Shown piece after piece: positions 2,931 through 58,870 of a stretch of DNA of 64,000 nucleotides. Source of the DNA: Lentibacillus jeotgali (lineage in GTDB: Bacteria; Bacillota; Bacilli; Bacillales; Amphibacillaceae); assembly GCF_000224785.1 (NCBI RefSeq), contig NZ_AGAV01000018.1, positions 1-64,000 of the forward strand, read 5' to 3'. A program made the position numbers and the translations under genes. The notes under the pieces are model-generated. The model was not told where the DNA came from. It did no database searches and saw only the letters and a list, made by a program, of their open reading frames with translations. The stretch's first letter is position 1, and every line of letters starts with the position of its first letter.

Positions 2931-2965
2931 GGTGCCTGTCACTTCTGCTTTGTAATTAAATTAGA
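2931..2965 (+). repeat. interspersed REP-like element, copy 1
   Basis: GGTGCCTGTCACTTCTGC followed by a diverged tail. It lies 18 bases after the DnaD fragment. A small GC stem (GGCCC..GGGTGCC) precedes it. Confidence 0.7.
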
Positions 2966-3130
2966 TTTTTTTTGCAATTTTGAGTGGTTCTAATTAACTG
3001 GTACGAACATTCGAATCATGTTGCTATTCGCTGGTAACGATCTTTAATATTGATGTATGAAAAATATATAGAAAGCTGTCGACTTTAATTATGAGGAGTC
3101 GTTGAAGAGGGAGAGATTGTTATCACTTTC

Positions 3131-4525
3131 ATGATAGCTTTTGGCTTAGCGAGTATTATGCTCTGTGTGGGCATGATTATACGAACGAAGGTTTCTTTTA
3201 TTAGCAAAATGCTGGTACCCGCAAGTGTTGTTGCTGGCGTGTTGGGCTTGATTATCATGAATACGGGTCTGATTACAGCCGTCGACTCGCAAATGTACGT
3301 CGATATTGTGACCTTCTTATTTACGGTGACGTTTATTTCTATCGGATTGACAAGCAATCCTAAGTCCAAAACATCGGATTCTGTTGGAAAGAGTATAGCA
3401 AAAGGATCGATTGGATTAGGTTTTCTTTGGAATTTAATTTATGCCCTTACCCCAGCTGTTGGAGCGATTATCATTATTGGGATTGGCGGCTTCTTCGGAA
3501 TGGATCCGGTATATGGCTTATTAATTCCTTTTGCTTTTACCCAAGGCCCCGGGCAGTCAGCGACATTTGGAGGAATTATGGAACAGCAATATAGGATTGC
3601 CAATGCTGCGACAGTGGGTGTCACCTTTGCAGCGTTAGGATTCCTGCTGTGCTTTCTCGTTGGAGTCCCGTTAGCCAGGTATGGGATTAAACGAGGATTG
3701 GCGAAAAACATGGGTTCATCCAAAATTGAAGATTTTGTTGAACGAGGCTATTATGTGAAAAGCGAAAAAAGAGACACATTAGGAAACGAAACGATGTTCA
3801 GCGGCAACATTGATACGATGACTTTCCATTTTGCAATTATCGGCCTCTGTTTTCTTTTGGCTTTGGGAATGTCCGAAATTGTTTCATACATTCCCGCGAT
3901 TGGTTCCACATTCAGCGGTATGCTGTTTATATATGGAATGCTGGCAGGCTACCTTGTTAAGTTCATTATGAAAAAATGGCGTATCGAAAATATGTTGGAT
4001 AATACGTTTCAGTCTAAAATAACCGGCTGGTCAACGGATTATTTGATTGTTGCTTCCTTTATGGCTGTTCCATTCAGTGTTATTGGAAACTGGATGATTC
4101 CAATTATCACCGTGGCTGTGGTGGTTATGTTAATAAGTGTTATGATCTGCATCTACTTTGGCCAGCGAATGGGCGGCGAAAATGATTTTGAAAGAACAAT
4201 CGGCTTATACGGGACAGTCACAGGAACCGTCCCAAGCGGTATTGCGCTTGTGAGGATTATTGATCCTTCTTTAAGAACCTCAACAGCAGTTGAATTAGGA
4301 TTGATGAACTTGCCAATGGTAGCTTCTTTTGTAACTGTTTCGACGATAATGGCGATAGCGTCCGGTGCATTGTCGATGAGTCTGGGTATTCTTTTGCTAT
4401 TGGCACCCATTCCAATTTATTTAATCGTATTAAAGGTAATCAAAGTATGGGGCACGAAAACATATGACTTTAAATCGGAGTCTGGATCCAAAGTAGAGAG
4501 ACTGAAAAGAGCTACTGCAGAATAG
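3131..4525 (+). CDS. GltS-like sodium:glutamate symporter family protein (ESS)
   Basis: Polytopic membrane protein of 464 residues with about eleven to twelve hydrophobic segments. The segment FTQGPGQSATFGGIME (about 135-150) resembles the conserved pore-loop region of the ESS family (GltS), and a second such region, GLYGTVTGTVPSGIALVR, occurs at about 357-374, as expected for a two-fold pseudo-symmetric carrier. The substrate is not certain; the next gene is a hydrolase, so an amino acid or small acid released from an N-acyl compound is plausible. The best-placed Shine-Dalgarno-like sequence (GAGGGAG) is unusually far, 17 bases, from the ATG. No closer standard start is in frame. Confidence 0.75.
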   Translation: MIAFGLASIMLCVGMIIRTKVSFISKMLVPASVVAGVLGLIIMNTGLITAVDSQMYVDIVTFLFTVTFISIGLTSNPKSKTSDSVGKSIAKGSIGLGFLWNLIYALTPAVGAIIIIGIGGFFGMDPVYGLLIPFAFTQGPGQSATFGGIMEQQYRIANAATVGVTFAALGFLLCFLVGVPLARYGIKRGLAKNMGSSKIEDFVERGYYVKSEKRDTLGNETMFSGNIDTMTFHFAIIGLCFLLALGMSEIVSYIPAIGSTFSGMLFIYGMLAGYLVKFIMKKWRIENMLDNTFQSKITGWSTDYLIVASFMAVPFSVIGNWMIPIITVAVVVMLISVMICIYFGQRMGGENDFERTIGLYGTVTGTVPSGIALVRIIDPSLRTSTAVELGLMNLPMVASFVTVSTIMAIASGALSMSLGILLLLAPIPIYLIVLKVIKVWGTKTYDFKSESGSKVERLKRATAE

Positions 4526-4540
4526 AGAGGGGAGTATTGA

Positions 4541-6163
4541 GTGTTGAAAAAATTGTATTACGGCGGCGATATTGTAACCATGGAGAAGGACATGGATGCG
4601 GCAGAAGCAGTGTTAATTGAAGACGGCGTGATTAAGGAAGTCGGTAGTTTAGACGCATTTCAGGCCTATATGAATGATACGGGTATTGAAAAAGTTGATT
4701 TAAAAGGGAATACCTTGATGCCGGGATTCGTTGATCCTCATGGTCATTTGTCAATGATGGGACCACTGGCAACAATGGCTGATTTAAAAGAATGTGAGAG
4801 CTTCGATGATATTCATTATACACTAACCTCCTACATGCAAAATAAAGAAATTGGCAAGGGAGACTTAGTTGTCGGCTTTGGCTATGATCATAATTTCCTG
4901 AAAGAGGAGCAACATCCGTTAAAACACGTATTAAATGAAGTATCATCAGAAAATCCGATTCTAATTTTCCATGCATCCGGTCACATAGGGTGTGCGAACG
5001 ATGCAGCATTAAATTTTGCAGGGATTGACGAAAATACACCTGACAAAGAAGGCGGCCACATTGGCAGAATGGAAGACACGATGGAGCCCAATGGGTATTT
5101 GGAAGAAGGAATCCTGATGTCCTTGATGAACAGTATCTTTGCAGATATTGATATGGATTATGTCCAGTTAGCCAATCTTGGCCAGGAGATTTATATTAAA
5201 AATGGAATTACGACTGTACAGGATGGTGCGACCTCAAGCGAAACCATCGAGCTCTTTAAAGCGTTGTCGGAAAAGGATAATTTGAAGGTAGATGTTGTTG
5301 CGTATCCATTAGTGGCTGAAAACCCAAATGACATGAAAAATAATGAGCAATACGCTAAGAACTATCATAATCGCTTTAAAATCGGCGGATACAAAATGTT
5401 CTTGGATGGCTCTCCTCAAGGCAAGACAGCATGGATGACAGAACCATATGAAGGGGAAGAAAGCTATCGCGGTTACCCGTGGTACGAGGACGAACAAGTA
5501 AAGCAGTATGTGACGAAAGCCATTAATGACGATGTGCAGCTGCTTACCCACTGTAATGGTGATGCGGCGTCTGATCAGCTGTTAAAAAACTACGAAGCTG
5601 CACTGCAGGAATCGGATAATCCGAACAAAGACAAATTGCGTCCGGTAATGATTCACTGTCAAACTGTCCGTTATGATCAGCTGGACAAGATGGCCGAACT
5701 AGCGATGATACCTTCTATATTCATCCCTCACACATATTTCTGGGGCGATGTACATCTGAAAAATTTGGGGCAAGAGCGCGGAAATCGAATAAGCCCTGCA
5801 AAATCCGCCTTTGACAGGGGACTTATGGTAAACTTCCACCAGGATCCACCAGTCGTAAAACCGGACATGCTTCATACAATATGGTGCGCAGTCAATCGAA
5901 TCACCCGAAAAGGCGTTAACATTGGACCTGAAGAACGCGTCACTGTTTATGACGCCTTGAAAGCTGTAACGATCAATGCAGCTTATTCCTACTTTGAGGA
6001 AGATCAAAAGGGAAGCATAAAAGCAGGAAAACTTGCTGACTTTGTGATATTGGACCAAAATCCGCTTGAAGTGGAAAAACTGGATATAAAGGATATACAA
6101 GTTTTAAATACTATCAAAGAAGGCAGAACGATTTATAGTAGGGATAAGGTTCTTGCTGAATGA
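4541..6163 (+). CDS. metal-dependent amidohydrolase (YtcJ-like, amidohydrolase 3)
   Basis: 540 residues of the COG1574 group. The N-terminal beta domain begins LYYGGDIVTME; the HxH metal motif is DPHGHLSMMG (about 66-75); further ligands fit FHASGHIGC, the Lys of GGYKMFLDGSPQG, and the His of LLTHCNGDA and PVMIHCQT. The C-terminus KAGKLADFVILDQNP is typical of the superfamily. GTG start with GAGAGGGGAG upstream, 15 bases after the carrier stop, so both are one operon. It probably hydrolyses an amide, imide or similar bond in a compound imported by the carrier; the substrate cannot be read from sequence. Confidence 0.85.
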   Translation: MLKKLYYGGDIVTMEKDMDAAEAVLIEDGVIKEVGSLDAFQAYMNDTGIEKVDLKGNTLMPGFVDPHGHLSMMGPLATMADLKECESFDDIHYTLTSYMQNKEIGKGDLVVGFGYDHNFLKEEQHPLKHVLNEVSSENPILIFHASGHIGCANDAALNFAGIDENTPDKEGGHIGRMEDTMEPNGYLEEGILMSLMNSIFADIDMDYVQLANLGQEIYIKNGITTVQDGATSSETIELFKALSEKDNLKVDVVAYPLVAENPNDMKNNEQYAKNYHNRFKIGGYKMFLDGSPQGKTAWMTEPYEGEESYRGYPWYEDEQVKQYVTKAINDDVQLLTHCNGDAASDQLLKNYEAALQESDNPNKDKLRPVMIHCQTVRYDQLDKMAELAMIPSIFIPHTYFWGDVHLKNLGQERGNRISPAKSAFDRGLMVNFHQDPPVVKPDMLHTIWCAVNRITRKGVNIGPEERVTVYDALKAVTINAAYSYFEEDQKGSIKAGKLADFVILDQNPLEVEKLDIKDIQVLNTIKEGRTIYSRDKVLAE

Positions 6164-7646: not shown

Positions 7647-7673
7647 AACCAAAGCCACCTTTCTACTAGAATT

Positions 7674-7706
7674 GGCGCCTGTCACTTGTCTATTTTTGTC
7701 AAATTA
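7674..7706 (+). repeat. interspersed REP-like element, copy 2
   Basis: GGCGCCTGTCACTTGTC then TTTTTGTCAAATTA. It fills the gap between the sortase stop and the start of the excalibur membrane gene. Confidence 0.6.
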
Positions 7707-7709
7707 CAT

Positions 7710-8967: not shown

Positions 8968-9045
8968 ATAAATTTACGAAATATTACAACGGGTAATGCA
9001 AAAATAGATTTTAGGTTAAGGAAATTCCTTTTTCCTTATAGGTTT

Positions 9046-9076
9046 AGTGTCTGTCACCACCCGAATTTCATCGGTG
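9046..9076 (+). repeat. interspersed REP-like element, copy 3
   Basis: AGTGTCTGTCACCACCC then GAATTTCATCGG. The central CTGTCACC variant also occurs in the copy at 12318. Confidence 0.6.
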
Positions 9077-10177: not shown

Positions 10178-10178
10178 T

Positions 10179-10203
10179 AGGTGTCTGTCAATTCCCGATT
10201 AAC
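10179..10203 (+). repeat. interspersed REP-like element, copy 4
   Basis: GGTGTCTGTCAATTCCC then GATTAA, starting two bases after the TIR remnant stop and ending at the IS66 remnant. Confidence 0.6.
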
Positions 10204-10573: not shown

Positions 10574-12166
10574 ATGTCTTTTAATGATTTAGTTAAAGGG
10601 AATAAACTCCCGGTATTATTTATCGGCTCAGGATTTAGTAAACGATATTTAAATTCACCGAACTGGGAAGCATTATTAATGAGGGTTTATCAATACTTGG
10701 GAAAGAATACAATAGATTATAAGTCACTAAAACTAAAAACAAAAAACAAAAGAGAAAATAGAAATTTGAGTACTGGTGAAATAAATGCCATTATTGCTGA
10801 AGAAATTGAAATGGAATTCAATAATTATTTTTATGAAAGTGATTTGGTCCATGAATTTCCTGAATGGGTTGAAAAGGAAGTAAATCCATTTAGAAAATGT
10901 ATAGCATCAATTTTGGATGAGCTCGAATTGCTTGAAGAAAAGCAAGAGGAAATCGAGGCTTTTAAGGAATTAAAAAATAAAATTAAATCAGTGATTACAA
11001 CAAATTATGATACCCTTTTAGAGGACTTATTTGATTTACCGAAAGATAGTACCTTTATTGGCCAACCACAATTATTCAGCCCAAATTCCATGGAAATAGG
11101 GGAGTTATATAAGATCCATGGTTGTATGACTGAATCAGATAATATTGTCATTACAAGCAGAGATTATAGTAACTTTAGAAGTAACGCAAAGCTTTTTAGT
11201 GCAAAATTGCTTACCCTCATTTCTGAAAATCCTGTTGTTTTCATTGGATATTCAATTAGTGATCCTAATATACAACAAACGCTTAGTGATTTGATACGTT
11301 GTTTATCAGAAGAGCAAATCAATAATTTGAAAAGTCATTTTTATGTGATTGAGTTTAATGAGGGTGTTAAAGAAATAGAAGAAAAAGAACTGCTGTTCCA
11401 CGCACAATCTTACCAGGGTGAAACAACCACCTTCCCAATAACTGTTATTAGTACAGACAACTATTTAGGGGTTTATAAAAAATTAAATGAACTAACTCCG
11501 GCAATGAATTTAGATACGGTTAAGCAAGTCAAAAGGATTGTAAAGGATATTGTAGTCGATGCTGTTGAATCTAAGGAAAAAACAGATGTACAGACGATAT
11601 TTATGGATGACATAAATAAGCTGAAACAAACTGATCAAAAGTTTGCAATTGCAATTGGGAATATTAAAGATATTAACAGTAATTATGGTTACAATCTTAG
11701 ACCCGTAGAGGAAGTTTTGGAAGACATACTATTTGATAACAAAAACTTCAACTCAGAAAGGTTAATTAAAGAAACGTATGAAAAATCCTATCTAAAAATA
11801 AAGCGAATTATTCCAATATACAAATACCTAAGAAAATTATCCAAGGAAGAAGTTGAGGAAAAATGTCCGAATGTTTATAATTACGTTTCTACGCATTTAA
11901 AAAAGGATGATTATCTAAATAGTAATATCATTAGATCTCTGAAGAATATTCCGGTTGGAAACAAGATGGATGATATGCCACCAAGTTTTAAAGGTAATAC
12001 ATATAAGACTTCTCTATGGCTTATTAAAAACTTTGAGCTATTACCATTGGAGGAAATCAAGATTTTATTACAAAAGGAATTCGATAATTATGGCCAATTT
12101 AATAGTAATCAACAAAGCAGCTACAGAAGATTAGTATCATTATATGATCTGTTTCAATATAAATAA
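10574..12166 (+). CDS. SIR2-domain protein, probable NADase of an anti-phage system
   Basis: 530 residues. The N-terminal SIR2-like fold (about 10-260) shows LPVLFIGSGFSKRY (Rossmann start), SVITTNYDTLLEDLF with the catalytic Asn, LYKIHGCM with the catalytic His, VITSRDYSNF, and VFIGYSISDPNIQ. This arrangement fits SIR2 domains of defence proteins that deplete NAD after infection. The C-terminal half (about 290-530) is Lys/Glu-rich, probably helical, and not recognised; no SLOG domain was identified, so it is not obviously ThsA. The ATG has AAAGGAG 14 bases upstream. Codon use is very AT-rich, suggesting acquisition. No partner gene is intact nearby. Confidence 0.8.
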   Translation: MSFNDLVKGNKLPVLFIGSGFSKRYLNSPNWEALLMRVYQYLGKNTIDYKSLKLKTKNKRENRNLSTGEINAIIAEEIEMEFNNYFYESDLVHEFPEWVEKEVNPFRKCIASILDELELLEEKQEEIEAFKELKNKIKSVITTNYDTLLEDLFDLPKDSTFIGQPQLFSPNSMEIGELYKIHGCMTESDNIVITSRDYSNFRSNAKLFSAKLLTLISENPVVFIGYSISDPNIQQTLSDLIRCLSEEQINNLKSHFYVIEFNEGVKEIEEKELLFHAQSYQGETTTFPITVISTDNYLGVYKKLNELTPAMNLDTVKQVKRIVKDIVVDAVESKEKTDVQTIFMDDINKLKQTDQKFAIAIGNIKDINSNYGYNLRPVEEVLEDILFDNKNFNSERLIKETYEKSYLKIKRIIPIYKYLRKLSKEEVEEKCPNVYNYVSTHLKKDDYLNSNIIRSLKNIPVGNKMDDMPPSFKGNTYKTSLWLIKNFELLPLEEIKILLQKEFDNYGQFNSNQQSSYRRLVSLYDLFQYK

Positions 12167-12317: not shown

Positions 12318-12590
12318 TAGATACCTGTCACCACTCGAATTTTGTCATTTTATGTCGAATTAAATTATTGTATGGGAGCTGCTGGTTCGAATAGGGCTAG
12401 TGGCTTTTTTGTGGACATGAAAAAATTTATCCGTTTACTCAAAATGGCATTTTCTCCCGCTCTTTTTCGTTAATTTTGGAGTTTTACTTGCGAACGTTTT
12501 CTGAAATTGAAATCTTCATCGTTTGTGGTGTTCATAAGACGATTTCAAGGATTATAAATAAGAACTAGTGTCCTTAACTTTTAACAAAAT
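12318..12590 (+). repeat. long element form, copy A (REP-like core plus comM upstream block)
   Basis: Starts with the core (ACCTGTCACCACTCG, AATTTTGTCATTTTATG), continues with a CTGCTGG..CTAGTGGCTTTTTT hairpin and a tail containing TTCGTTAATTTTGGAG, CGAACG and GACGATTTCAAGG. The same order of blocks recurs at 12595, 14984 and 16137, where it reaches the comM promoter. Copy A stops at about 12590, short of that promoter, where copy B begins. Confidence 0.75.
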
Positions 12591-12594
12591 AGTT

Positions 12595-12915
12595 AGTGTG
12601 CTTGTCACTTTCCGAACTTTGTCGTTTTATGTCGAATAAAATTAATGTATCGAGGTCACTGGTTCAGATCGAGCTGGTGGCTTTTTTATGGACAAGAAAG
12701 ATTTTATTTTTTCTTCAAAATGGCATTTTCTTCTGCTCTTTTTCTTTATTTCCGGAATTTTACCTGTGGTTGTTTTCTGAAATTTGAATTTTCATATTTT
12801 TTAGTGTTCATAAGGTGATTTTATGGGTTATAAATACGAACTAGTGTTCTTGACTTTTAATAAAATATAGCGTATCTTATACCTAATCAATGACTGATAA
12901 AAGGTGTGAGAGATA
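12595..12915 (+). repeat. long element form, copy B, leading into a comM fragment
   Basis: Core variant GTGTGCTTGTCACTTTCC, hairpin GGTTCAGATCGAGCTGGTGGCTTTTTT, then a promoter-like TTGACT with TATCTT about 18 bases downstream, and the leader AAAAGGTGTGAGAGATAATGG that serves comM. It is followed directly by the comM fragment at 12916. Confidence 0.8.
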
Positions 12916-13420
12916 ATGGCTGTGATTGTGTCAAGTATTGGTCTGAAAGGAATTAAAGGGTATCGCGTTGATGTGGAGATACAGCTGTGCCGAGGGTGGA
13001 AGGGGTTAATATTGTCGGATTGCCGGATACCTCAGTTAAAGAATCAAAGAATCGTGTGATAGCGGCTTTGTATGCGAACGACTGTGAAGTTCCGGATAAG
13101 AAAGTTGTGATTAATTTGTCGCCTGCTGAACAGAAGAAAAATAGCCCAATATTTGATTTGGCGATGGCAATTGGGATTATGATATTAAGGAGACAATTCC
13201 GGATAATGCTGCTTTTCTGGGTGTTTTATCATTGGATGGCACGATTAAACCCGTTGATGGCATGCTTCCGGCAATCGTTGCTGCCAAATAAGAAGGCATC
13301 AAGTACTTGTATTTGCCACCAATGAAGGATACGCCATTGCCGCAAATAAACGGTATGGGGATTCGCACCATTCCGCATCAGCTGTTTCACTTATTAGCGA
13401 ATTTTACTTGGTCTCATTCG
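12916..13420 (+). pseudogene. comM: partial duplicate of comM (YifB/Mg-chelatase-like ATPase)
   Basis: Begins MAVIVSSIGLKGIKGYRVDVEIQL like the copy at 16437. It has a one-base loss at about 12988, a short deletion after DLAMAIG (about 13175), a TAA within the VAAK stretch, and then a jump from the IDDMEL-equivalent region to the part matching HSASAVSLIGG of the later copy, so several hundred bases including the Walker A motif are missing. After about 13405 similarity ends. It cannot make ComM. It lies between copy B of the upstream block and an unrelated membrane protein gene. Confidence 0.85.
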
Positions 13421-14983: not shown

Positions 14984-15306
14984 GTGGTGCCTGTCATTCC
15001 CCGTAATGAGCGCCTGGCATCACCTGAATTATGTCGTTTTATGTCAAATAAAATTAATGTATCGAAGTCACTGGTTCAGATCGAGCTGGTGGCTTTTTTG
15101 CGGACGTGAAAAATTTTATTCGTTCTTCAAAATGACGTTTTTTTCCCGTTCTTTTTCGTTATTTTTGGAATTTTACTTGCGAACGGTTTCTGAAATTGAA
15201 CTTTTTATCTTTTTTGGTGTATATAAGGCGATTTTATGGGTTATAAATACGAACTAGCGTTCTTGACTTTTAACAAAATATAGCGTATCTTATACCTAAT
15301 CTATGA
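14984..15306 (+). repeat. long element form, copy C
   Basis: Begins with two successive core variants (GGTGCCTGTCATTCCCC and GCGCCTGGCATCACCTG), then GTCGTTTTATG, the GGTTCAGATCGAGCTGGTGGC hairpin and the comM promoter region up to TATACCTAATCTATGACT. The comM gene itself is absent; a further core copy starts ten bases later. Confidence 0.8.
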
Positions 15307-15316
15307 CTTAAGTCTA

Positions 15317-15345
15317 GGTGCCTGTCACTTCCCGAATTATGTCGT
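15317..15345 (+). repeat. interspersed REP-like element, core copy after copy C
   Basis: GGTGCCTGTCACTTCCC then GAATTATGTCG and TTTTATGTCGAAT. It leads into a dehydrogenase remnant. Confidence 0.8.
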
Positions 15346-15373
15346 TTTATGTCGAATATAATTATGAGGTGTG

Positions 15374-16136: not shown

Positions 16137-16436
16137 TTGGTTCCTGTCACTTTCTGGGTTTTATTATTTTATGCCGAATAATGTTATTGGATAGGAGCTG
16201 CTGGTTCGGATAGAGCTGGTGGCTTTTTTGTGGACGTGAAAGATTTTATTTGTTTTTCAAAATGGCGTTTTTTCCCGTTCTTTTTCGTTATTTTTGGAAT
16301 TTTACTTGCGAACGGTTTCTTTTGGTGTTTATAAGCCAATTTCAAGGGTCCTGAATACGAACAAATGTTCATGTCTTTTGAAAGAATATGGCGTATCTTA
16401 TACCTAATCTATGACTGATAAAAGGTGTGAGAGATA
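16137..16436 (+). repeat. long element form, copy D, with the comM promoter
   Basis: Core variant TGGTTCCTGTCACTTTCTG, hairpin GCTGGTTCGGATAGAGCTGGTGGCTTTTTT, a tail shared with copies A-C, then TATCTTATACCTAATC and the leader AAAAGGTGTGAGAGATAATGG of comM. Confidence 0.85.
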
Positions 16437-17968
16437 ATGGCTGGGATTGTGTCGAGTATTGGTCTGAAAGGGATTGAAGGGTATCGTGTTGAAGTGGAGG
16501 TACAGCTGTTGCCGGGGGTGGAAGGGGTCAATATTGTCGGTTTCCGGATGCTTCGGTTAAAGAGTCAAAAGATCGTGTGACGGCGGCTTTGTATGCGAAC
16601 GACTGTGAGGTTCCGGATAAGAAAATTGTAATTAATTTGTCTCCAGCTGAACAGAAGAAAAATAGTCCGATATTTGATTTGGCGATGGCTATTGGGACTA
16701 TGGAAGAAGCGGGGGATATTAAAGATGCCATTCCGGATAATGCTGCTTTTCTAGGTGTTTTATCACTGGGTGGCATGATTAAAACCGTTGATGGAATGCT
16801 TCCGGCAATCGTTGCTGCCAAAAAAGAAGGCATCAAGCACTTGTATCTGCCACCAATGAAGCATACGCCAATGCCGAAAATAGATGATATGGAATTATGT
16901 TTTGTTGAAACGCTCCATGATGTCGTTGCTTCTTTTTCCGGCCAGCTTTCTTCATTTACTATAACGTCCATGCCCTCTACTGAAATAACGAATCTGAAGC
17001 CAGTAGCTTACGACAAGGATTTCCAGCAAATTCTTGGCCATAAGCAAGCGAAAAGAGCACTGGAGATTGCTGCTGCGGGCGGTCATAATGTGTTAATGAC
17101 AGGTCCTCCAGGGTGTGGAAAGAGTTTACTGGCATAGACTTTTCCTTCGATTCTGCCTCTCTTGAGTGAATCGAGTCAATTTGATGTGATGAGCATTTAT
17201 CAGTTGGCTGGTATAACGAATGACAATTATCAAATTCCGCCATTCCGGGATCCGCATCATTCCGCATCGGCTGTTTCGCTTATTGGCGGGGGAACCAACC
17301 CGAAGCCTGGTGAAGTTTCTTTAGCACATCGTGGTGTATTGTTCCTTGATGAAATGGCCGAGTTCCCCAAGCGTACATTGGACATGCTCAGGCAGCCGGT
17401 CGAATCAGGGAAGGTGACTATCAGCCGGGCAGCCTCAACTGTAACTTATCCGTCAGAGTTTCTGCTGCTGGGCGCCATGAATCCATGCCCATGCGGTTTT
17501 TTAGGGTCAAGACATTATTATTGTACGTGCACACCTAAACAAATAACGGCTTACAGTAACCGTGTATCCGGGCCCATTCAGGATCGTATGGATATATTGC
17601 TGAGGCTTGATACAGTAGGACTGGACAAGACGACTGAAGATAATGAAACATCAGCATCCATCTGCAACCGTGTAAGTGCCGTTCGCAAAAGGCAATATGA
17701 TCGTTATGGTGACGACATACTCAATGCAAACGCGCCAAATGAAACCATATTAAGAAATAGTCAACTAACTGAAGACCAGCAAAAAATGATGCAGCAATGG
17801 TCAAGTAAACATAACTGGAGCCCACGCGTGCAGATGAAAATTTTGCGCCTGGCACGGACGATTTCGGATTTGAGCGGTGATGAAGGGATAACCAATGAAA
17901 GTATCTGGGAAGCTGTCACAATGAGGCGTTCCCGCGGAAATAAACGAGAGAAAGGGATGGTACAATAA
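16437..17968 (+). pseudogene. comM: comM/yifB-like AAA+ ATPase gene, broken by frameshift and amber codon
   Basis: Nearly full-length gene for the Mg-chelatase-like ATPase ComM/YifB, a helicase that helps branch migration in natural transformation. The N-terminal Lon-like domain (VSSIGLKGIEGYRVEVEVQL, then VINLSPAEQKK), Walker A GPPGCGKSLLA, Walker B GVLFLDEMAEF, MNPCPCGFLG and the C-terminal sensor region WSPRVQMKILRLARTISDL are all present. Two lesions: loss of one base near 16547 (IVGF.. where copy B has IVGLPDTS) and TAG at 17135 replacing the Glu codon after KSLLA. The frame is otherwise intact, so the damage is recent. The stop lies two bases before the RAYT start. Confidence 0.88.
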
Positions 17969-17970: not shown

Positions 17971-18510
17971 ATGGGCAGGAAGAAACGGGTCTGGGTGCCC
18001 AACTCATTTTACCACGTCGTTTGTCGCGGCAATCGCCGTGATGCTCTTTTCAAAGACGAAGGTGACTTTAAAACCTTTCTCCGGATCCTTCGACAGATTC
18101 ATCAAAAAACACCATTTGAACTCGCTTCCTATTGCTTGATAACCAACCATTTTCACCTGCAAATACGCTCCAAAGAACAGCCGATCTCCAAAGTTATGTC
18201 CCTCATAAACAAGCGGTATGCCGATTATTACAATACAAAGAACCGCATCACCGGTCACGCCTTTGAAAAACGGTATTATGCTAAAGTTATTGATTCGATG
18301 GAAGGGATGCTCGAAGTAAGCCGCTACATCCATTTGAATCCGGTTGATGCGAATATGGTTGTAACCCCGCAGAATTACCAATGGAGCAGTTACCGATATT
18401 ACATGCATACGTTCCGTTACCAACTATTGAATATGGCAGTTATCTTGGATTACTTTTCGGGAAATGCGTGGGAGAAACGGCGGAAGTATCAGGCGTTTGT
18501 TCGTGGTTGA
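17971..18510 (+). CDS. REP-associated tyrosine transposase (RAYT, Y1 family)
   Basis: 179-residue single-strand DNA transposase of the IS200-like HUH superfamily. Visible: FYHVVCRGNRRDALF, the HUH motif NHFHLQI (residues 50-56), and the catalytic Tyr in SRYIHLNPV (about 114-122). GHAFEKRYYAKVID is typical of RAYT. These enzymes move or maintain short palindromic REP elements. ATG two bases after the comM stop, so both were probably one transcript. A copy of the interspersed element begins directly after its stop codon. It is the only intact transposase-like gene seen here. Confidence 0.88.
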   Translation: MGRKKRVWVPNSFYHVVCRGNRRDALFKDEGDFKTFLRILRQIHQKTPFELASYCLITNHFHLQIRSKEQPISKVMSLINKRYADYYNTKNRITGHAFEKRYYAKVIDSMEGMLEVSRYIHLNPVDANMVVTPQNYQWSSYRYYMHTFRYQLLNMAVILDYFSGNAWEKRRKYQAFVRG

Positions 18511-18575
18511 GTGCCTGTCACTTCCTGGATTTTGCCATTATTGTTGAATAAAATAATAGTTAGGTGGCGAATGCT
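18511..18575 (+). repeat. interspersed REP-like element, copy abutting RAYT
   Basis: GTGCCTGTCACTTCCTG then GATTTTGCCATTATTG and GAATAAAATAAT. It starts at the base after the RAYT stop codon. Confidence 0.85.
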
Positions 18576-20981: not shown

Positions 20982-21025
20982 AGGTGCCTGTCACTTCCCG
21001 AATTTTGTCGAATGTTGTTGATTAA
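20982..21025 (+). repeat. interspersed REP-like element, consensus-like copy
   Basis: GGTGCCTGTCACTTCCC then GAATTTTGTCGAATG. One of the copies closest to the window consensus. Confidence 0.85.
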
Positions 21026-21167: not shown

Positions 21168-21385
21168 TATTTCACGAACACAAAAGATTGAACTTTTCAG
21201 GTGAAGAGTCGTTGTCCAGGATTTTATAGCACTGCTTAAGCCCGGTTAAAAATAGTCTCCCTCACCCCTATAATCGAACCGGACCTGATAAAAGTGGCAT
21301 CTTCCGTCCGAAAAAATAAAAAATAATTTTCATTCTCATGCCCACAACTCTTTAAATGTTTCGATTATAGTTATGAATAGGAGTC
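21168..21385 (+). repeat. second repeat family, copy 1 (inverted arms CTATAATCGAA/TTCGATTATAG)
   Basis: About 215 bp closely similar to 40134-40350 (shared: ACACAAAAGATTGAACTTTT, CTCACCCCTATAATCGAA, GGCATCTTCCGTCCGAAAA). Perfect 11-base inverted arms at 21268-21278 and 21360-21370. It follows a REP-like core as in the other two copies. No gene was recognised in 21386-21848. Confidence 0.8.
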
Positions 21386-21446
21386 TATTGAGCGAACGTA
21401 ATTCATTATCCGCATCCTCCATGACACTATGGCACGCGTAGTATTG

Positions 21447-21482
21447 GGTGCCTGTCACTTCCCGGATTTTGCCGAATTATAT
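21447..21482 (+). repeat. interspersed REP-like element
   Basis: GGTGCCTGTCACTTCCC then GGATTTTGCCGAATTAT. Confidence 0.8.
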
Positions 21483-22445: not shown

Positions 22446-22481
22446 CGCAGTCACTGTTTAGCGCAAACAAAGATCGGTCCT

Positions 22482-22510
22482 GGGTTCCTGTCATCACCTG
22501 AATTAGGAAG
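22482..22510 (+). repeat. interspersed REP-like element
   Basis: GGGTTCCTGTCATCACCTG then AATTAGG. It lies between the coiled-coil gene and the broken HipA-like gene. Confidence 0.6.
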
Positions 22511-22640: not shown

Positions 22641-23297
22641 ATGAGACACTTCCGTTTTCAATGGAAGGCAGAGGATGAGGAAACAGCTGCAAGTTTATTT
22701 AATGCCGAATTTGGATCTGCTTATGAGGATTTGCAATATAGTAGGTTAAAAAACAAGGCATTAATGCGGGAATTTTTCTCTTTATTTAAATCGTTTAGCT
22801 TATTTAATCTGCTTCGAGAAAATTTTGCTTTAATGAATTTATTTGATATTCTGATTGGAAACCAAGATCGCCATGCACATAATTGGAAGGTATTATATAT
22901 TAATCAGAAACCGACTTTTGGGCCATTATATGATAATGGTGCTTCCCTTGGGTGGCAGTTGCCTGAAGAGCAAATACAACAACAATTACACTCAGTTCAG
23001 AAAATGAATACATTTTTTAAAAAGTCAAGAGTCAAAATGGGAATGGATAATAAGGAAAGCCCAAGAATAAAAGCAAAACAAGTATTATACTATCTGAGTA
23101 TAAACTATCCTAACGAAACCCGCTTATTTTACAACAAATTGCCTGATTTTAACCTGGATACGCTTGAAGAATATTTAAAACCATTTCCTTTGCTGACGAA
23201 AACAAGGAAACAATTTATTATTGAAATGATTCGTTTCCGCCGGATGAAAATGCTTGAGATTCTAAAAGAGGGAGGAACAGCAAATGAGCAATATTAA
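22641..23297 (+). pseudogene. C-terminal part of a HipA/CtkA-like kinase
   Basis: The 218-residue frame holds the catalytic half of a HipA-type Ser/Thr kinase: DILIGNQDRHAHNWKVLY with the catalytic Asp and Asn of the NxDRHxxN motif, and FGPLYDNGASLGW with the Mg-binding Asp. The N-terminal half, with the nucleotide-binding loop, is missing: a TAA lies upstream in frame and a REP-like copy 130 bp upstream marks the break. The start has no good ribosome site. It overlaps the next gene by 14 bases, so the two were translationally coupled. A kinase of a toxin-antitoxin or defence-like pair, now probably inactive. Confidence 0.75.
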
Positions 23298-24046
23298 GTC
23301 ATTGCTGTTGGTGTGGCAAAATAGGGAAACTAGGCTATATTACCATATTGGGACGTTGAACTTTGATGGGTGAACAATATACATTTACGTATACTAACCG
23401 CATCGAATCGAATCGTAATGTCCTGGCTGCTATGCGGAATGGATACCATTTGCATCCAACGTTTCCGAAACTGGAAAAAACGTATACTGCACAATTGTTA
23501 TTCCCTGCCTTCAACCGACGAATACCAGATACATCAAGGATTGGTTATCACAAAATTTTAGATGAGTTTGCCTTACCGTCTGATGCTGACAGGATGGATG
23601 TATTGCGTGAAACGCGCGGGGCCCTTGCCTGGGATCCTTATACATTTGAAGAGCCGCTGCGACTTAACGGCAGTCATCTGCGCTCAAATTTTTATATAAA
23701 TGGTATGCGGCATATGGATGTACCAGGCAACTGGACGGACCATGTCCAAGTAGGTGATCAACTAAGGGTGGATTTAGATAGCGACAATAAGGTGGATCCA
23801 TTTGCTGTGAGTATTAAAACACAGGATGGACTGCAACTGGGCTATGTTCCAGGCATATACGCGCAGGCTGTGCATGCTTTATTGCACCAGGAAATCGACC
23901 TGGCTTTAGCGGTTACCCAGATGCATCCAAATTTTTCCCCACAATGGTGGGTGCGTGTGGAATTGTCAGCCGTTATCGAAAGTCTGTCAAGATATGAGGA
24001 GGATTCCAGTCATCTCAAAAGTATAATTTTTCGAGAAACAGCATAG
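23284..24046 (+). pseudogene. HIRAN-domain protein with a frameshift
   Basis: Starts MSNIKSLLLVWQNRETRLYYHIGTLNFDG and meets TGA at 23371; reading continues one base shifted as GEQYTFTYTNRIES and on to 24046. A single extra base in the GGG at about 23369 restores one frame of about 253 residues. The HIRAN domain is at the C-terminus (LRSNFYINGMRHM..VQVGDQLRVDLDSDNKVDPFAVSI..GLQLGYVPGIYAQAVHALL). HIRAN domains bind DNA ends. The pairing with a HipA-like kinase resembles known HIRAN-HipA gene neighbours in bacteria. Confidence 0.75.
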
Positions 24047-24049
24047 GTT

Positions 24050-24140
24050 GGGTGCCTGTCTCTTCCGGTTTTTGTCGAATGAAATTAAAATGGTTTATAA
24101 AAGCTGCTGGTTTGGATAGAGCTGGCGGCTTTTTTGCGTC
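24050..24140 (+). repeat. interspersed REP-like element with terminator hairpin
   Basis: GGTGCCTGTCTCTTCCG then GTTTTTGTCGAATGAAAT, followed by AGCTGCTGG...CTGGCGGCTTTTTT, which pairs along nine positions (with G-U pairs) and ends in T6. It directly follows the HIRAN gene and would terminate it. Confidence 0.8.
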
Positions 24141-24380: not shown

Positions 24381-25034
24381 GTGAAATATTTTATAAGCGT
24401 TCTTTTTGTGCTCTCGATTATTACATTAGGAGGTTGTGGAATGGGCCAGGATCAAAACAAAAAACCATCTGAAATGAATCCGGAAGACTTGCCTGATGTC
24501 AGGGCATTTAATGATGAATTTACGCTCGATTTTCTACAATCCACAGAGGAAACAAGAGATGGGTATTATCCGTTTTTATCAGGAACTGGTAAATATAAGA
24601 TGGACTTTCCAGCTGGTGGTGTGATTGGAAAAAGGGCATATTCCATAAAAGAGAAAGGTCATGAAGAGGTTCCGATTCATATTAAGGATGAAACAGGTGC
24701 CATGATCCATGTTATTTATTATTCATACCGGAAATCTGATCAGGTAGCATCATATCTTGACCGTTTTAAAAAAAGATCAGGAATAGAAACAGAATTCGAA
24801 AAGCTGGAAGATAGTAATCAATCACTTTATTATGCGCATAATGAAGATGATATATTCCGAACCTATGCAGGCTATGTGCAAAATGAAAAAGGTACTGGTG
24901 GTATTGAAGTAGTTTATGAGATAGACTGCAGAGGTGAAAAGGAAAAAAACTGTTCAGAAAACAAACAAGACGATAAGGGACGTGTGATGAAATGGATGAA
25001 ATCGATTCAGTTTGTTCATGAAGATGGGAAGTGA
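24381..25034 (+). CDS. lipoprotein of unknown function
   Basis: 217 residues. GTG start seven bases after GGGAGG. Signal peptide MKYFISVLFVLSIITLGGC with lipobox TLGG-C, so exported and lipid-modified. The mature part begins with an acidic linker, then a domain with YPFLSGTGKYKMDFPAGGVIG and IHVIYYSYRKSDQVASYLD; not recognised. The stop overlaps the ribosome site of the following gene, so it is the first gene of a three-gene operon with the lipase-like protein. Such trios occur in Bacillaceae and may be linked to secreted toxins. Confidence 0.75.
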   Translation: MKYFISVLFVLSIITLGGCGMGQDQNKKPSEMNPEDLPDVRAFNDEFTLDFLQSTEETRDGYYPFLSGTGKYKMDFPAGGVIGKRAYSIKEKGHEEVPIHIKDETGAMIHVIYYSYRKSDQVASYLDRFKKRSGIETEFEKLEDSNQSLYYAHNEDDIFRTYAGYVQNEKGTGGIEVVYEIDCRGEKEKNCSENKQDDKGRVMKWMKSIQFVHEDGK

Positions 25035-25039
25035 GTGCA

Positions 25040-26887
25040 ATGAGCGAAGAGGTTATGCATACACAGGAAATGCGATTGCGATTGATTGATTTGGAGTACA
25101 AAGATTTGTCAGAAAAAGAATTAAAAAAAGAAATCGAACGTATATATGTCGAAGAGTATGGTGAAGAACTTTCGGCTAAGATAGATGTCTTCACTTCTTC
25201 AGATGCGGAAAGTTTAGAAGATAATACGTCTGGTTATGATGGCACAGCTATTCATTTCCAATCCGAAGAAAACAATATCGATGAAGTATATGTTATATCG
25301 CAAGGTACGCAGGGTGCTAAAGATTGGGAATACAATATGAAGGCAATGCTGGCTGGACAGGACATAAGTCAAGCCGATGCAACAGAGGAATTTGTAAATG
25401 AAGCAAAAAAGAATTTTAAAACAGGTGATTCCACATCGATTATTGGCTTATCACATTCATTAGCTCATAATAATAATACAACGGCTCATTTACTATACGA
25501 TACATTTGATGACATCTATAGTGTTAATGGTGCCCAGACAAACTATTATCAACTTTATAATTATAGTGGAGAATTTAGAAAAGCGATATCAGAAGAGTTC
25601 TCAATATCTCCGTCAAATCTAAATACTATTTATGAAATTAATCCAGATAAATTAAAAGCATTCGCCAAAGATTATTACAAGGATAAGGGTGAAAACATCC
25701 ACCAAATCATTTCCGAAGATGATCCGCTTTATGCGGTGAGTAGTACACGTGGGTTTTTCACGCTTGGAGATGTGGAATTTGTAGACACCAATACAGATTA
25801 TCCAGGACTTCGATCTATCATGGATGACATCCCGGATGAAGCTGTGAAAGATCTTCAGGAGCTTGCTATTCAATATACGACTGCTTCTAATCGTGGCGGG
25901 ACAGATGCTGCAGTTCAGGAGATATTAGGTGTAGACATGGGTCTAGTCAAGCAAATTGATGGGTTTTGGAGTGCGGCAGGCGTATACACCACAAATCAGT
26001 CTGAAATTGATGAGATGATCAGGGACGTTAATGATAAGTTGCCCCGGCTGCTCTCACAAGTCAAAACGGTCACGACAAACGCTGATGTGATTTTCCAGCG
26101 GGTTGTTGATGCCGGATATATTAGTGCTGAGCAGAAGCAGCTGATCGTTACGGAACTTACGACTATTCAATCGGAGTTGGACGGGATGATGGAATCCATT
26201 TCAAGATTGGTTGACATTCGCGATATGCACAATTTGTCTTCACAACTTGGTGGGGATCTGGGTACTTACATAAATATCAAGAATCATGCTCAAGCAATCC
26301 AGGGTAGTCTCGATAAACTGAACACAGAGAAATTTCGTGCCCTTTTGCAAACAATTGGGAGCGGTCATGATATCACTGGTATATTGGAATCAATGAATAA
26401 AGGAAACAAATCTTACTTGGGTACAGATATGGTTCTCACGGCGACCAAAGGAAGTGGGGAAATCCAGGTCAATATTTCAGCCACTTTGCGAATGTATGAA
26501 GAAGGAAAAAGATTACTTGAAGACAAAGCGACAGAGATTAAACGAATGCAGGCTACCATTGACCGGGAAGTCATGCAAAGTTACAAAACGGAACGAAGAA
26601 AAGTCATGAATAAGATCTATGACATGGAAGCAAGCCCCAGCACGTATACCCACCTTCTCAGAAAACATGTATATTTTGTCAGATTGGATAAGTCAATCAC
26701 AAGCATTAACGTTCATGAAGAATTTTATCCGTTCAATCATACCAATATGGATGACAAGATTAGCCTTTTAAATGAAAGTGTGGAAAAAGGCCATACTTAT
26801 CTCGAAAACTATCGATCGGCTATTCAAGATCTATTTGACGAGGAAGAAAATATTGCAGCCTTATTTGATGTGGTGGAGGGTTCTTAA
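25040..26887 (+). CDS. lipase-like protein (DUF6792-like)
   Basis: 615 residues. The N-terminal half (about 40-230) looks like an alpha/beta-hydrolase: VYVISQGTQGAKDWEYNMKAML, then SIIGLSHSLAHNNNTTAHL with a GxSxS nucleophile motif, and IYSVNGAQTNYYQL. The C-terminal half (about 270-615) is helical with coiled-coil stretches. The layout resembles DUF6792 proteins of bacilli, which I place here from memory. Start chosen as ATG with GGGAAGTGAG upstream; a GTG three codons earlier is less likely. No signal peptide; a type VII-like export route is possible because the next gene is a small helical protein. Confidence 0.65.
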   Translation: MSEEVMHTQEMRLRLIDLEYKDLSEKELKKEIERIYVEEYGEELSAKIDVFTSSDAESLEDNTSGYDGTAIHFQSEENNIDEVYVISQGTQGAKDWEYNMKAMLAGQDISQADATEEFVNEAKKNFKTGDSTSIIGLSHSLAHNNNTTAHLLYDTFDDIYSVNGAQTNYYQLYNYSGEFRKAISEEFSISPSNLNTIYEINPDKLKAFAKDYYKDKGENIHQIISEDDPLYAVSSTRGFFTLGDVEFVDTNTDYPGLRSIMDDIPDEAVKDLQELAIQYTTASNRGGTDAAVQEILGVDMGLVKQIDGFWSAAGVYTTNQSEIDEMIRDVNDKLPRLLSQVKTVTTNADVIFQRVVDAGYISAEQKQLIVTELTTIQSELDGMMESISRLVDIRDMHNLSSQLGGDLGTYINIKNHAQAIQGSLDKLNTEKFRALLQTIGSGHDITGILESMNKGNKSYLGTDMVLTATKGSGEIQVNISATLRMYEEGKRLLEDKATEIKRMQATIDREVMQSYKTERRKVMNKIYDMEASPSTYTHLLRKHVYFVRLDKSITSINVHEEFYPFNHTNMDDKISLLNESVEKGHTYLENYRSAIQDLFDEEENIAALFDVVEGS

Positions 26888-27224: not shown

Positions 27225-27270
27225 TGATCATTCAGAGTCCGATGATTTTACTGGTGGCGACTGTTAGGAT

Positions 27271-27305
27271 GGGTGCCTGTCACTTTCCGAATTTTGTCGA
27301 ATTGG
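27271..27305 (+). repeat. interspersed REP-like element
   Basis: GGGTGCCTGTCACTTTCC then GAATTTTGTCGAATTGG. The stretch 27306-27648 has no supported gene; a plus-strand frame around 27585-27660 (ELSDKEFKKYKRVLNAVGSG) looks like gene debris. Confidence 0.8.
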
Positions 27306-28013: not shown

Positions 28014-28055
28014 AGGTACTGCCAATTCCCGGATTTTATCCTATTATGTCTATAA
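28014..28055 (+). repeat. interspersed REP-like element, diverged
   Basis: AGGTACTGCCAATTCCC then GGATTTTATCCTATTATG. Nothing else was recognised in 27888-28230. Confidence 0.55.
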
Positions 28056-40044: not shown

Positions 40045-40130
40045 TAGGATGCCTATTACTCTCGAGTTTAGTAGAATTATATTATATATGAGCTGCTAGT
40101 TTTAAAACTGGTAGCTCTTTTTGATTTGTG
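40045..40130 (+). repeat. interspersed REP-like element with terminator hairpin, diverged
   Basis: GGATGCCTATTACTCTCG then AGTTTAGTAGAATTA, followed by GAGCTGCTAGTTTTAAAACTGG, TAGCTCTTTTT. The layout is as in 24050. Confidence 0.6.
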
Positions 40131-40133: not shown

Positions 40134-40350
40134 TTATTTCATCAACACAAAAGATTGAACTTTTCACTGAAGCGGCGTTGTCTAGGATTTTATGGCACCG
40201 CTTAAACTCGGTTATAAATAGTCTTCCTCACCCCTATAATCGAAACGGACTTGGTAAAACTGGCATCTTCCGTCCGAAAAAATAAAAACATTTTTCAATC
40301 TCATGCCCCCAACTCCTTAAATGTTTCGATTATAGTTATGAAGAGGAGGT
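40134..40350 (+). repeat. second repeat family, copy 2
   Basis: Same block as 21168-21385 with similar spacing; inverted arms CTATAATCGAA at 40234-40244 and TTCGATTATAG at 40325-40335. The remaining 150 bp before the next gene are AT-rich with nothing recognised. Confidence 0.8.
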
Positions 40351-50131: not shown

Positions 50132-50175
50132 GTAGGCACGGCTGCCACTTCCGAATTTTATCGAATGAAATGAAG
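50132..50175 (+). repeat. interspersed REP-like element, diverged
   Basis: AGGCACGGCTGCCACTTCC then GAATTTTATCGAATGAAAT. It flanks the amidase fragment. In 50253-50487 no gene was recognised. Confidence 0.65.
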
Positions 50176-51176: not shown

Positions 51177-51212
51177 AGGTCCCTGTGCACTTTCCCGAAT
51201 TTTATAGAATAA
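51177..51212 (+). repeat. interspersed REP-like element at the break of the symporter gene
   Basis: AGGTCCCTGTGCACTTTCC, CGAATTTTATAGAATAA. It sits exactly where symporter similarity ends. The rest of 51213-51439 is without a recognised gene. Confidence 0.75.
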
Positions 51213-54646: not shown

Positions 54647-54716
54647 AGATTATCGTTTGTGGAAGTCCTTTCTTTTTTTACTTACATTTATCGGAATTTT
54701 CTAAAGGGGGATGTTG

Positions 54717-56305: not shown

Positions 56306-56346
56306 AATTTCGAAATCTAACAATGAAACATGAAGGAGGCATCATC

Positions 56347-56559: not shown

Positions 56560-56592
56560 AAGTTGGAAAGTATTGAAAGGGGACTGATTAGG

Positions 56593-57048
56593 ATGTTTGA
56601 TAAATACCTTGAAGAATATGAAATTAATGAATCTTGGACCTCGAGAGGCAGAACCATTACCGAATCTGATTTAGTTATGTTTTCAGCATTTAGTGGAGAT
56701 TGGTTTCCACTCCACACAGATGAAGAATATGCTAAAAAAACCCAATATAACCAGCGTATTGCCCATGGAATGCTCGTACTATCGGTTGCAACTGGATTAC
56801 TGCATTTTGAACCAGAAATTGTTTTTGCTTTTTATGGTATGGAAAAGGTAAGATTTATAAAGCCAACATATATAGGGGATACCATACATTTGGAGCTGAA
56901 TGTCGATGATGTAAATGTTAAAAATCCTTCTCAAGGCGTTATCACAGCCCAAATGGAAGTTAAGAAGCAAACAGATGAAGTTGTTGCCGCTGCACAAATG
57001 AAATTATTAGTAAAAGGTAAACGGAAATCGCTTCCGTCACACACTTAA
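56593..57048 (+). CDS. MaoC-like (R)-hydratase
   Basis: 151 residues, hot-dog fold. The active-site pattern FSAFSGDWFPLHTDEEYAKKTQY, RIAHGMLVLSVATGLL contains the Asp and His of (R)-specific enoyl-CoA hydratases (D-x4-H). Likely hydrates or dehydrates an acyl-CoA made by the ligase. ATG chosen at 56593; a TTG 30 bases earlier contains the AAAGGGG site. Confidence 0.85.
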   Translation: MFDKYLEEYEINESWTSRGRTITESDLVMFSAFSGDWFPLHTDEEYAKKTQYNQRIAHGMLVLSVATGLLHFEPEIVFAFYGMEKVRFIKPTYIGDTIHLELNVDDVNVKNPSQGVITAQMEVKKQTDEVVAAAQMKLLVKGKRKSLPSHT

Positions 57049-57061
57049 TAAGGAGGAAATA

Positions 57062-58045: not shown

Positions 58046-58080
58046 ACCGTATACGGATTAGTCGACTAAGCGAAGGGTTC

Positions 58081-58118
58081 TGGTGCCTGTCACTTCCCGG
58101 ATTTTGTCATTTTATGTT
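58081..58118 (+). repeat. interspersed REP-like element
   Basis: TGGTGCCTGTCACTTCCC then GGATTTTGTCATTTTATG; followed by GGTGGGACTGGGAGGCGGG..CCTCGTCCCACC, a possible hairpin. Confidence 0.85.
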
Positions 58119-58209
58119 GAAAAAGTGGCTGTTGATTTGGTGGTGGGACTGGGAGGCGGGCTTCTCCTCGTCCCACCTATGTTTGGGGCGGGAGAATGAG
58201 TATGTTCTT

Positions 58210-58566
58210 TTAACCTTTACGAAGCCACTCTCTTGCTGCTTCCAGTTTTTCCAGTGGATACTGTTGTATTTCCACACCCGGTATAAGTTTTTCTACTTTT
58301 TCGTTAAGACCCACAAACGATTCATCTGCGACAATAGCGCTTTTCTTTATGCTTTTCAGGTGGGTGACAATTTTCCAGCCCTGCATCAGTGCTTTTGGTG
58401 TGTTACCATCAATGTTCTTGAAGATAAACAAAATGTTGACGGGATCCTCTTGAAGTTTTTTAGCCTTTAAAGCCTCCTCAAATTTTTGTAAGTCATCCTG
58501 TGTTGCCGTACCCTCAGTCGTCACCTCCAAAATTTCACCTTTATTTTCACCTTTTATTTCCAGCAT
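58210..58566 (-). CDS. SpoIIAA-like STAS/SEC14-fold protein
   Basis: 118 residues of the DUF3478 type: LEIKGENKGEILEVTTEGTATQDDLQKFEEAL and VNILFIFKNIDGNTPKALMQGWKI, with VEKLIPGVEIQQYPLEKLEAAREWL at the end. Family function is unclear. The ATG at 58566 has AAAGG nine bases upstream; an ATG three codons earlier is too close to it. Confidence 0.8.
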   Translation of the reverse strand: MLEIKGENKGEILEVTTEGTATQDDLQKFEEALKAKKLQEDPVNILFIFKNIDGNTPKALMQGWKIVTHLKSIKKSAIVADESFVGLNEKVEKLIPGVEIQQYPLEKLEAAREWLRKG

Positions 58567-58641
58567 CAAACTCATCCTTTCATTTTCATCTTTGTGTATA
58601 GTATTTCACTCTGAGGGTGAGATGAAACATGCGGATTGGGT

Positions 58642-58870
58642 GGGTGCCTGTGACTTCCCGAATTTTGTCGAATACACTCACCTACTTATACAGACAAACG
58701 GCTGCTGTTTCTTTAATTGCTGGCTTTCTTATCCCTATATTCGAAATGAACGTGGAAAAGGTGGCGTTATTAGCTGAAAAAATTAAAGATACTTTTTAGT
58801 TCCATGCCCCCAAATGGCAAATTGTTCCGATTATAGTTGTGAGAGATAGTTTATTAAGCTAATACGCAAG
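58642..58870 (+). repeat. REP-like core plus second-family module, copy 3
   Basis: Core GGGTGCCTGTGACTTCCC, GAATTTTGTCGAAT, then CTATATTCGAA (58735) and TTCCGATTATAG (58825-58836) as diverged inverted arms with CCATGCCCCCAA between, as in 21168 and 40134. Confidence 0.75.

Follow-up and report, generated by a model that had tools for sequence, protein, structure and literature searches.

Repetitive extragenic palindrome (REP)-associated tyrosine transposases (RAYTs) are viewed as domesticated transposases with an unclear benefit to the host. Here we describe a lone RAYT gene and the short REP-like repeats that cluster around it in the same direction in Lentibacillus jeotgali, a salt-loving relative of Bacillus. 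The analysed stretch, referred to as the window, covers 64 kb at the start of contig C14 (312 kb) in a genome of 3.78 Mb and 31 contigs. The closest described system is RAYT-REP, or REPtron (TnpA-REP class 2); in the parts of PMC6006769 and PMC2817692 considered here, it comprises a HuH-Y1 protein of low copy number that is flanked by its own, mostly intergenic repeats, as in the window. Different from RAYT-REP, the window-type repeats lack GT[AG]G at the hairpin foot, their hairpin is very short and is followed by a directional 3' tail, most copies point in the same direction instead of forming inverted pairs (BIME/REPIN), and a comM gene stands beside the RAYT in many loci. The IS200/IS605 elements (TnpA-IS200) and their non-autonomous derivatives share the Y1 fold and hairpin-marked ends, and the studied members prefer the lagging strand according to the part of PMC6006769 considered. 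In contrast, the window has a single RAYT gene rather than a multi-copy insertion sequence, its RAYT scores only 20 bits with the IS200 model NF033573 (cut-off 55), and one insertion of the present type shows a 15-bp duplication. The CGTC-tagged REPs are likewise short palindromic intergenic repeats; the part of PMC3733652 considered describes stems of 8–9 bp and a mostly alphaproteobacterial occurrence, with no transposase gene found flanked by them. The present system is a RAYT/REP system with unusual local, co-oriented repeats, and its RAYT lineage is often paired with a ComM-type ATPase. We consider it likely that the array in the window descends from a Bacillaceae RAYT/REP system that spread its repeats locally.

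The RAYT gene (17971–18510, +) is an open frame of 179 residues with an HFH motif and the tyrosine motif RYIHLNP. The protein belongs to the Y1/HuH proteins, as it matches PF01797 with 53 bits and NF047646 with 71.7 bits, the latter under the 80-bit cut-off, and an alignment-based search relates it to TnpA-REP (PDB 4er8, E 1e-5). Among eight aligned RAYTs, HFH is present in seven and HYH in one, and RYIHLNP is present in all eight. The window RAYT is closest to the RAYTs found in Lentibacillus kapialis and L. salicampi. The gene is flanked by the repeat family, with one copy upstream of the comM-RAYT pair (16137) and one at the RAYT end (18508), and RAYTs of several other species also have copies on both sides. 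An earlier, sequence-only reading of this DNA had tied the repeats to the RAYT. The tie is borne out, since the window RAYT is the sole Y1_Tnp found in the genome, consistent with a low copy number, and homologous RAYTs across Bacillaceae and their kin are surrounded by the same core. Specifically, 79 RAYT loci (1.40 Mb; from the best 80 of 499 confirmed stretches) were fetched with eight RAYTs from named Bacillaceae genomes and those of related families; with no more than one mismatch, the core was matched 296 times in these loci, compared with one match of the reversed motif. We then surveyed 40 genomes, the own genome included, of which 28 have a RAYT match and 12 have none. With one mismatch allowed, the 17-base core occurs in 15 of the 28 and in two of the 12, and all nine genomes with at least four copies have a RAYT match. 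The two RAYT-less genomes (G011 and G029) hold one copy each, so the element is found, in trace amounts, in relatives without the enzyme, an occurrence that the sequence-only reading had named as speaking against its proposal. A decayed counterpart of the copy at 58081 survives in G011; hence, such trace copies may be fossils, and copies seem to outlive the enzyme.

The cross-species repeat unit has a small hairpin, GGTG-CCTGT-CAC(C), followed by the directional 3' tail CCCGAATTTTGTCGAA. A second TTTTGTCGAA often lies about 10 bp further on, and some lineages have the tail CCCGAATAATCTTGTTTCAC instead. The unit is an imperfect palindrome with GGTG/CAC(C) arms and occurs in multiple copies, 164 of 177 scored copies being outside predicted open reading frames. 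Copy orientation was defined by a tail score and not by the hairpin loop, because the loop is flipped while the tail is not in some lineages (L114 and L116); a loop-only count (224/72) and a more stringent tail rule (158/25 of 344) were superseded by this score. Loop and tail are opposed in 32 of 274 scored copies, and the tail runs along the RAYT in 28 of those 32. Of 246 exact copies, 13 have a GT[AG]G guide within 7 nt 5' of the hairpin on one strand and one has it on the other, compared with eight of 246 for a control stretch. The best hint of the element ends is at locus L173, where an 11-bp direct repeat bounds an exact 31-nt unit. Stem covariation across RAYT clades (GGTG/CACC and GGGG/CCCC) was considered and dropped, as L276 pairs GGTG with CCC. 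Pattern search and a seed hidden Markov model (HMM) found no inverted partner of the REPIN/BIME type in the window, and in some relatives a copy immediately downstream of the RAYT is inverted. The window has no Rfam match at the gathering threshold, and no paper on REPs was among the literature matches listed for the core sequence. The common tail TTTTGTCGAA, for example in the copy at 20982–21023, resembles a Spo0A box; tails of the other type (L096, L105, and L109) hold TGTTTCAC, half a parS site.

The pattern GGTGCCTGTCACTTCCC with up to three mismatches has 14 matches in the window, all on the plus strand, whereas dinucleotide shuffles give a mean of 0.02; the tail alone has seven plus-strand matches and one minus-strand match, with 1.66 expected. 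Window copies were graded with two models, namely the seed HMM (ten copies) and a model R1 built from 16 of the genome's own copies, with which 150 of 2015 first-look candidates were scored. Of the 21 copies listed in the sequence-only reading, 11 are clear, four are decayed, five are doubtful, and one, at 40045, has no match at E ≤ 10 in either the seed-HMM or the R1 search; a clear copy at 15012 was missing from the list. All copies described hereafter are on the plus strand, and where the listed start differs, it is given in brackets. Three of the four clear copies in repeated pieces of the comM leader are 12318–12362 (R1 E 1e-10), 12597–12639 (listed at 12595; R1 E 6e-12), and 15012–15051 (seed HMM; R1 E 3e-4). 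The copy at 15315–15358 (listed at 15317; pattern, R1 E 1e-13) has the top score in the genome. The copy at 16137–16181, upstream of comM, matches the pattern but is strong in R1 only (E 2e-9; seed HMM E 0.05), and R1 was trained on it. The copy at 18508–18551 (listed at 18511; pattern, R1 E 6e-10) had been described as starting just after the RAYT stop; it does stand at the RAYT end, but its first G is replaced by A, the last base of the stop codon, so that its first base overlaps that codon. Four further clear copies were found by both pattern and tail, at 20982–21023 (R1 E 4e-11), 21444–21480 (listed at 21447; R1 E 5e-10), 24048–24082 (listed at 24050; R1 E 6e-6), and 27270–27303 (listed at 27271; R1 E 1.5e-9). 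The copy at 58081–58124 (pattern, R1 E 2e-13) has a counterpart in L. kapialis (G006) aside from the decayed one in G011, and at the site of 58641–58673 (listed at 58642; pattern, tail, R1 E 1e-8) G006 and G007 are only partly alike.

The decayed copies have seed-HMM E values of 0.003–0.04. They lie at 2930–2945 (listed at 2931; also pattern, R1 E 0.07), 7674–7706 (also pattern, R1 E 0.02), 9045–9073 (listed at 9046; GTGTCTGTCACC form, R1 E 0.08), and 50142–50166 (listed at 50132; seed HMM E 0.04), the last being found also by its tail, which is its best preserved part. The doubtful ones have seed-HMM E values of 0.2–1.5 and lie at 10178–10198 (listed at 10179; pattern, seed HMM E 0.2), 14985–15005 directly ahead of the 15012 copy (listed at 14984; pattern, seed HMM, R1 E 1), 22481–22504 (listed at 22482; seed HMM E 0.5), 28022–28050 (listed at 28014; seed HMM E 0.7, R1 E 0.05), and 51177–51210 (tail, seed HMM E 0.75). 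As had been claimed, neither the pattern search nor the seed HMM gave a copy on the opposite strand of the window, and neither the seed HMM nor R1 gave one between ~28.1 and ~50.1 kb, in line with the claimed absence from the sugar locus. In the whole genome, R1 finds 19 copies at E ≤ 1e-3: C14 has 16 (+), C27 two (−), and C29 a weak one (−). The genome-wide orientation count that the sequence-only reading had called for is therefore uneven, with 16 plus and three minus. A model-free pattern search with up to one mismatch gives 13 matches, 11 on C14 (+) and two on C27 (−); up to two mismatches raise the number to 24, but at this setting the reversed control already has 13. The own array shows its age, with many decayed copies and a broken comM beside an open RAYT frame.

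Five clear copies (12318, 12597, 15012, 16137, and 24048) have common downstream sequence (repeat families D1, D3, and D7); the one at 24048 shares terminator-like sequence with the comM-leader copies (D7). The other four belong to repeated segments of the comM leader and do not represent separate insertion events; the array thus has fewer independent insertions than copies. This common sequence, together with the patchy distribution of RAYT and comM, would fit an array that arose in a single block, by horizontal acquisition or segmental duplication, and inherited its orientation with the block. We regard such an origin as unlikely, since the other clear copies have no common flank either in their adjacent context or in the 20 families listed out of 60 or more repeat families, clusters are seen again in eight genomes, and a filled and an empty site have been found in two relatives, as described below.

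The recurrence of clustering was examined in eight genomes that were picked because copies are present, with copy lists from different searches. The copies within 100 kb of a RAYT number 15 of 19, six of 18, 11 of 33, 12 of 20, eight of 21, five of 17, 15 of 26, and five of six, whereas 3–6% are expected; the binomial p is ≤2e-4 when copies are treated as independent, which tandem copies are not. Across the 79 loci, the density is 0.83 per kb immediately upstream of the RAYT (first kb) and drops to ~0.15 per kb at 5–10 kb. Local clustering is not new in kind, as the part of PMC2817692 considered already describes REPs gathering within at most 200 kb of rayt in Proteobacteria, namely in three marine gammaproteobacteria and partly in Thauera. 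No report of clustering in Bacillaceae was found among open-licence papers. Among the open-licence papers listed, RAYT repeats in Bacillaceae are likewise absent except for two Geobacillus genome papers, which in the parts considered only count RayT genes in a table (PMC4847372 and PMC9693769). In E. clarkii, a second tight cluster of eight same-tail copies (G040:C1:731655-752777) has no RAYT found within ~800 kb and is perhaps the site of a lost RAYT.

Co-orientation of the copies with the RAYT is pronounced. By tail score, 235 copies in the 79 loci run along the RAYT and 39 are opposed, with 70 of 344 unscored. The rule is nearly strict upstream of the RAYT (166 along, nine opposed), and 59 copies run along and 16 are opposed beyond 600 bp downstream. 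Within 150 kb of the RAYT, 77 of 96 copies in the eight genomes are co-oriented with it. Neighbouring copies have the same orientation in 59 of 81 pairs near the RAYT and in 20 of 31 far from it. The sequence-only reading had suggested that the uniform orientation reflects strand-biased insertion, for example into the lagging-strand template, in which case the RAYT would insert only there and orientation would follow the fork and flip at origin and terminus. We used local GC skew as a stand-in for fork direction. Overall, 111 of 163 scorable copies match the local skew; 27 of 204 copies are unscored, 14 more are in weak skew, and four of the 18 G001 copies were not fetched. All eight scored tails of the RAYT-free cluster of E. 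clarkii (731–753 kb) are minus where the 20-kb skew is −0.02 and −0.07, and all five scored copies of Alkalihalophilus pseudofirmus OF4 are minus in negative skew. However, much of the overall agreement stems from copies near the RAYT, and the RAYT itself lies on the leading strand, as judged by GC skew, in 68 of 70 loci (longer than 12 kb, with skew beyond 0.02). Because the RAYT is nearly always leading-strand, near copies cannot separate RAYT direction from fork direction. The copies that can, those more than 150 kb away or on other contigs, agree with the skew in only 35 of 68 cases, varying from six of seven in E. clarkii to seven of 22 in G012, and the two own copies on C27 are both minus in positive skew. 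Hence, a strict lagging-strand rule is not supported and is rather improbable as the explanation; co-orientation is a local effect. A rule set by gene direction is not general either, since it holds for 45 of 55 near and 24 of 43 distant copies.

The gene context bears on another explanation, in which the copies would be a functional 3'-end signal, such as a terminator or mRNA-end element, that is selected and co-oriented with genes. A terminator-like site lies within 130 nt downstream of 25 of 94 copies, compared with 35 of 470 random places, and the location of most copies outside predicted open reading frames is also as expected for such a signal. However, the random places were not confined to intergenic DNA, and an intergenic location alone may account for the excess; for the same reason, terminators are not claimed as insertion targets. 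A genome-wide signal would not be expected to cluster at the RAYT, and among distant copies only the 24 of 43 mentioned above follow a codirectional gene pair. We consider this explanation very unlikely.

In a RAYT/REP system that spreads locally, the RAYT would recognise the short hairpin and the 3' tail, and new copies would be seeded mostly within ~100 kb of the RAYT gene and in its direction. Most likely, the RAYT would act on single-stranded DNA, on one strand and near its own locus, by nicking, copying or rejoining, and reinserting the repeat. With donor and target on one strand, orientation would be kept, and copies that travelled far would lose the rule. The comparison of empty sites with relatives, proposed in the sequence-only reading, yielded one pair: V. 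subterraneus carries ~55 nt plus a repeated TGTTAGCTCTTTTTT, and V. litoralis has TGTTAGCTCTTTTTT once. In the window, the flanks of 58081 and 58641 align too poorly for a junction. Single-strand insertion of the IS200/IS605 type should make no target duplication. The resolved V. subterraneus insertion carries a 15-bp duplication, and this one case suggests a staggered or copy-type step. Clean-looking flanking duplications are present at L173, L174, L186, and perhaps L147. Target-site duplications as a general feature were rejected: flanking repeats of at least 10 occur at 17 of 433 copies and nine of 1284 control pairs, and tandem or repeat-derived cases are frequent among the 17.

Several observations weigh against local spread by the RAYT, the duplication in V. 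subterraneus among them. The data show the kinship of the RAYT, the link between repeat and RAYTs, the clustering, and the co-orientation; movement of copies by the RAYT, the single-strand step, and the reason why orientation is kept are what we infer, and no movement was observed. The specificity between repeat and RAYT is not strict. Thirteen of the 28 genomes with a RAYT match lack the 17-base core, and the repeats differ among RAYT clades. In G002, the only RAYT accompanying the four copies is of the long type, and a further 91% match was found in RAYT-less G003. Three other genomes were reached through RAYT loci: G043 lacks an exact core, G044 has one copy ~110 kb from a RAYT, and G042 has three copies, two of them near a RAYT with an internal stop. 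As to orientation, copies 0–600 bp downstream of the RAYT are 10 along and 14 opposed, and copies near the RAYT are mixed in G009 (4/5) and G010 (3/4). The outermost hairpin pair shows no covariation (108 vs 100 ± 5.6). The lack of strict specificity and the smaller number of independent copies both lower our confidence slightly, and we still consider an array of local RAYT progeny the likely explanation.

The window RAYT directly follows a comM/yifB pseudogene (16541–17968, +), which encodes a Mg-chelatase-like AAA+ ATPase. The gene is broken, with the ChlI, Mg_chelatase, and Mg_chelatase_C domains in two pieces, one in-frame TAG, and the first 31 profile positions unmatched. A second N-terminal fragment of comM (12987–13325, +) is from the duplicated comM leader region (D4 and D9). 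A comM match, in some cases only a fragment, adjoins the RAYT in 40 of the 79 loci, 30 upstream and 10 downstream, and 39 of 41 RAYT-linked comM relatives have the Walker A motif GxxGxGKS. Also observed is the pairing of comM with long-type RAYTs (L254, L255, and L258; open frames of 265–272 codons). Within the 40 genomes, comM exceeds the family cut-off in five, the broken own one included, and all five adjoin a RAYT. With five more from a class-wide sample of 299 genomes, all ten over-cut-off comM tested in the host's order adjoin a RAYT, although some of the ten are the same records as in the 79 loci. As for comM fragments, that of G027 adjoins a RAYT and those of G006 and G031 do not. In other orders, none of the 30 best-scoring comM has a RAYT within 1.5 kb (two are cut by contig ends); six of 20 chosen lower-scoring comM are RAYT-linked, all of one family, two of them on opposite strands. 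In quick FastTree runs with rows chosen by similarity, the linked comM group together in a single clade (41 rows, of which two are duplicated, vs 30 unlinked; support 1.0, stem 1.05). After 20 more rows were added, the 41 linked rows alone have a support of 0.76, and together with the six further linked ones (47 rows) a support of 1.0 and a stem of 1.1. Gene order and RAYT length class are mixed within the linked clade, which speaks for repeated re-pairing of comM and RAYT. No paper listed in the literature search names both comM and RAYT; the adjacency in the host's order and the single linked comM clade are apparently new.

Elsewhere, ComM is a branch-migration helicase of natural transformation. 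L. salicampi (G008) has a comM without stops and one copy of the 17-base core genome-wide, L. kapialis has only a comM fragment and 18 copies (both assemblies of ~130–150 contigs), and the own genome has a broken comM and 10 copies. Loci longer than 10 kb carry 1.78 repeats per 10 kb when comM is present (n = 32) and 3.16 when it is absent (n = 37; p 0.0015), 10 of the 79 loci having been left out for a partial comM or a length of 10 kb or less. Since these statistics ignore shared ancestry, the association of comM loss with higher repeat density is a lead and not a result. We tentatively suggest that in Bacilli a dedicated ComM-type ATPase may be the partner of the RAYT and may open or branch-migrate the DNA that is cut and joined; repeats would then pile up upon loss of comM, and the window would possibly represent such a post-ComM pile-up.

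A second dispersed repeat of ~110–140 nt, resembling a miniature inverted-repeat transposable element, has imperfect inverted ends (CTATAATCGAA ... TTCGATTATAG). It is located at 21202–21375, 40168–40341, and 58724–58860 of the window and at C14:168812 and C27:23526, and in relatives it occurs in at least 12 places in G007 and at least six in G008. Two of its three window copies are less than 100 bp from a REP copy (21444 and 58641). The two REP copies at 58081 and 58641 bracket a gene for 121 residues (58210–58575, −); the gene lies in a stretch that has 74–85% DNA identity in all eight aligned congeners, while the flanks differ. The repeat-rich stretch also holds genes for SIR2_2 (10574–12166), a HipA_C-like protein below the cut-off (22641–23297), HIRAN (23363–24046), and DUF6792 (25031–26887).

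The local co-orientation of repeats across a bacterial family and the recurrent pairing with a ComM-type AAA+ ATPase provide handles for experiment. If the pair does cooperate, RAYTs would gain a partner and a possible role in single-stranded DNA recombination.

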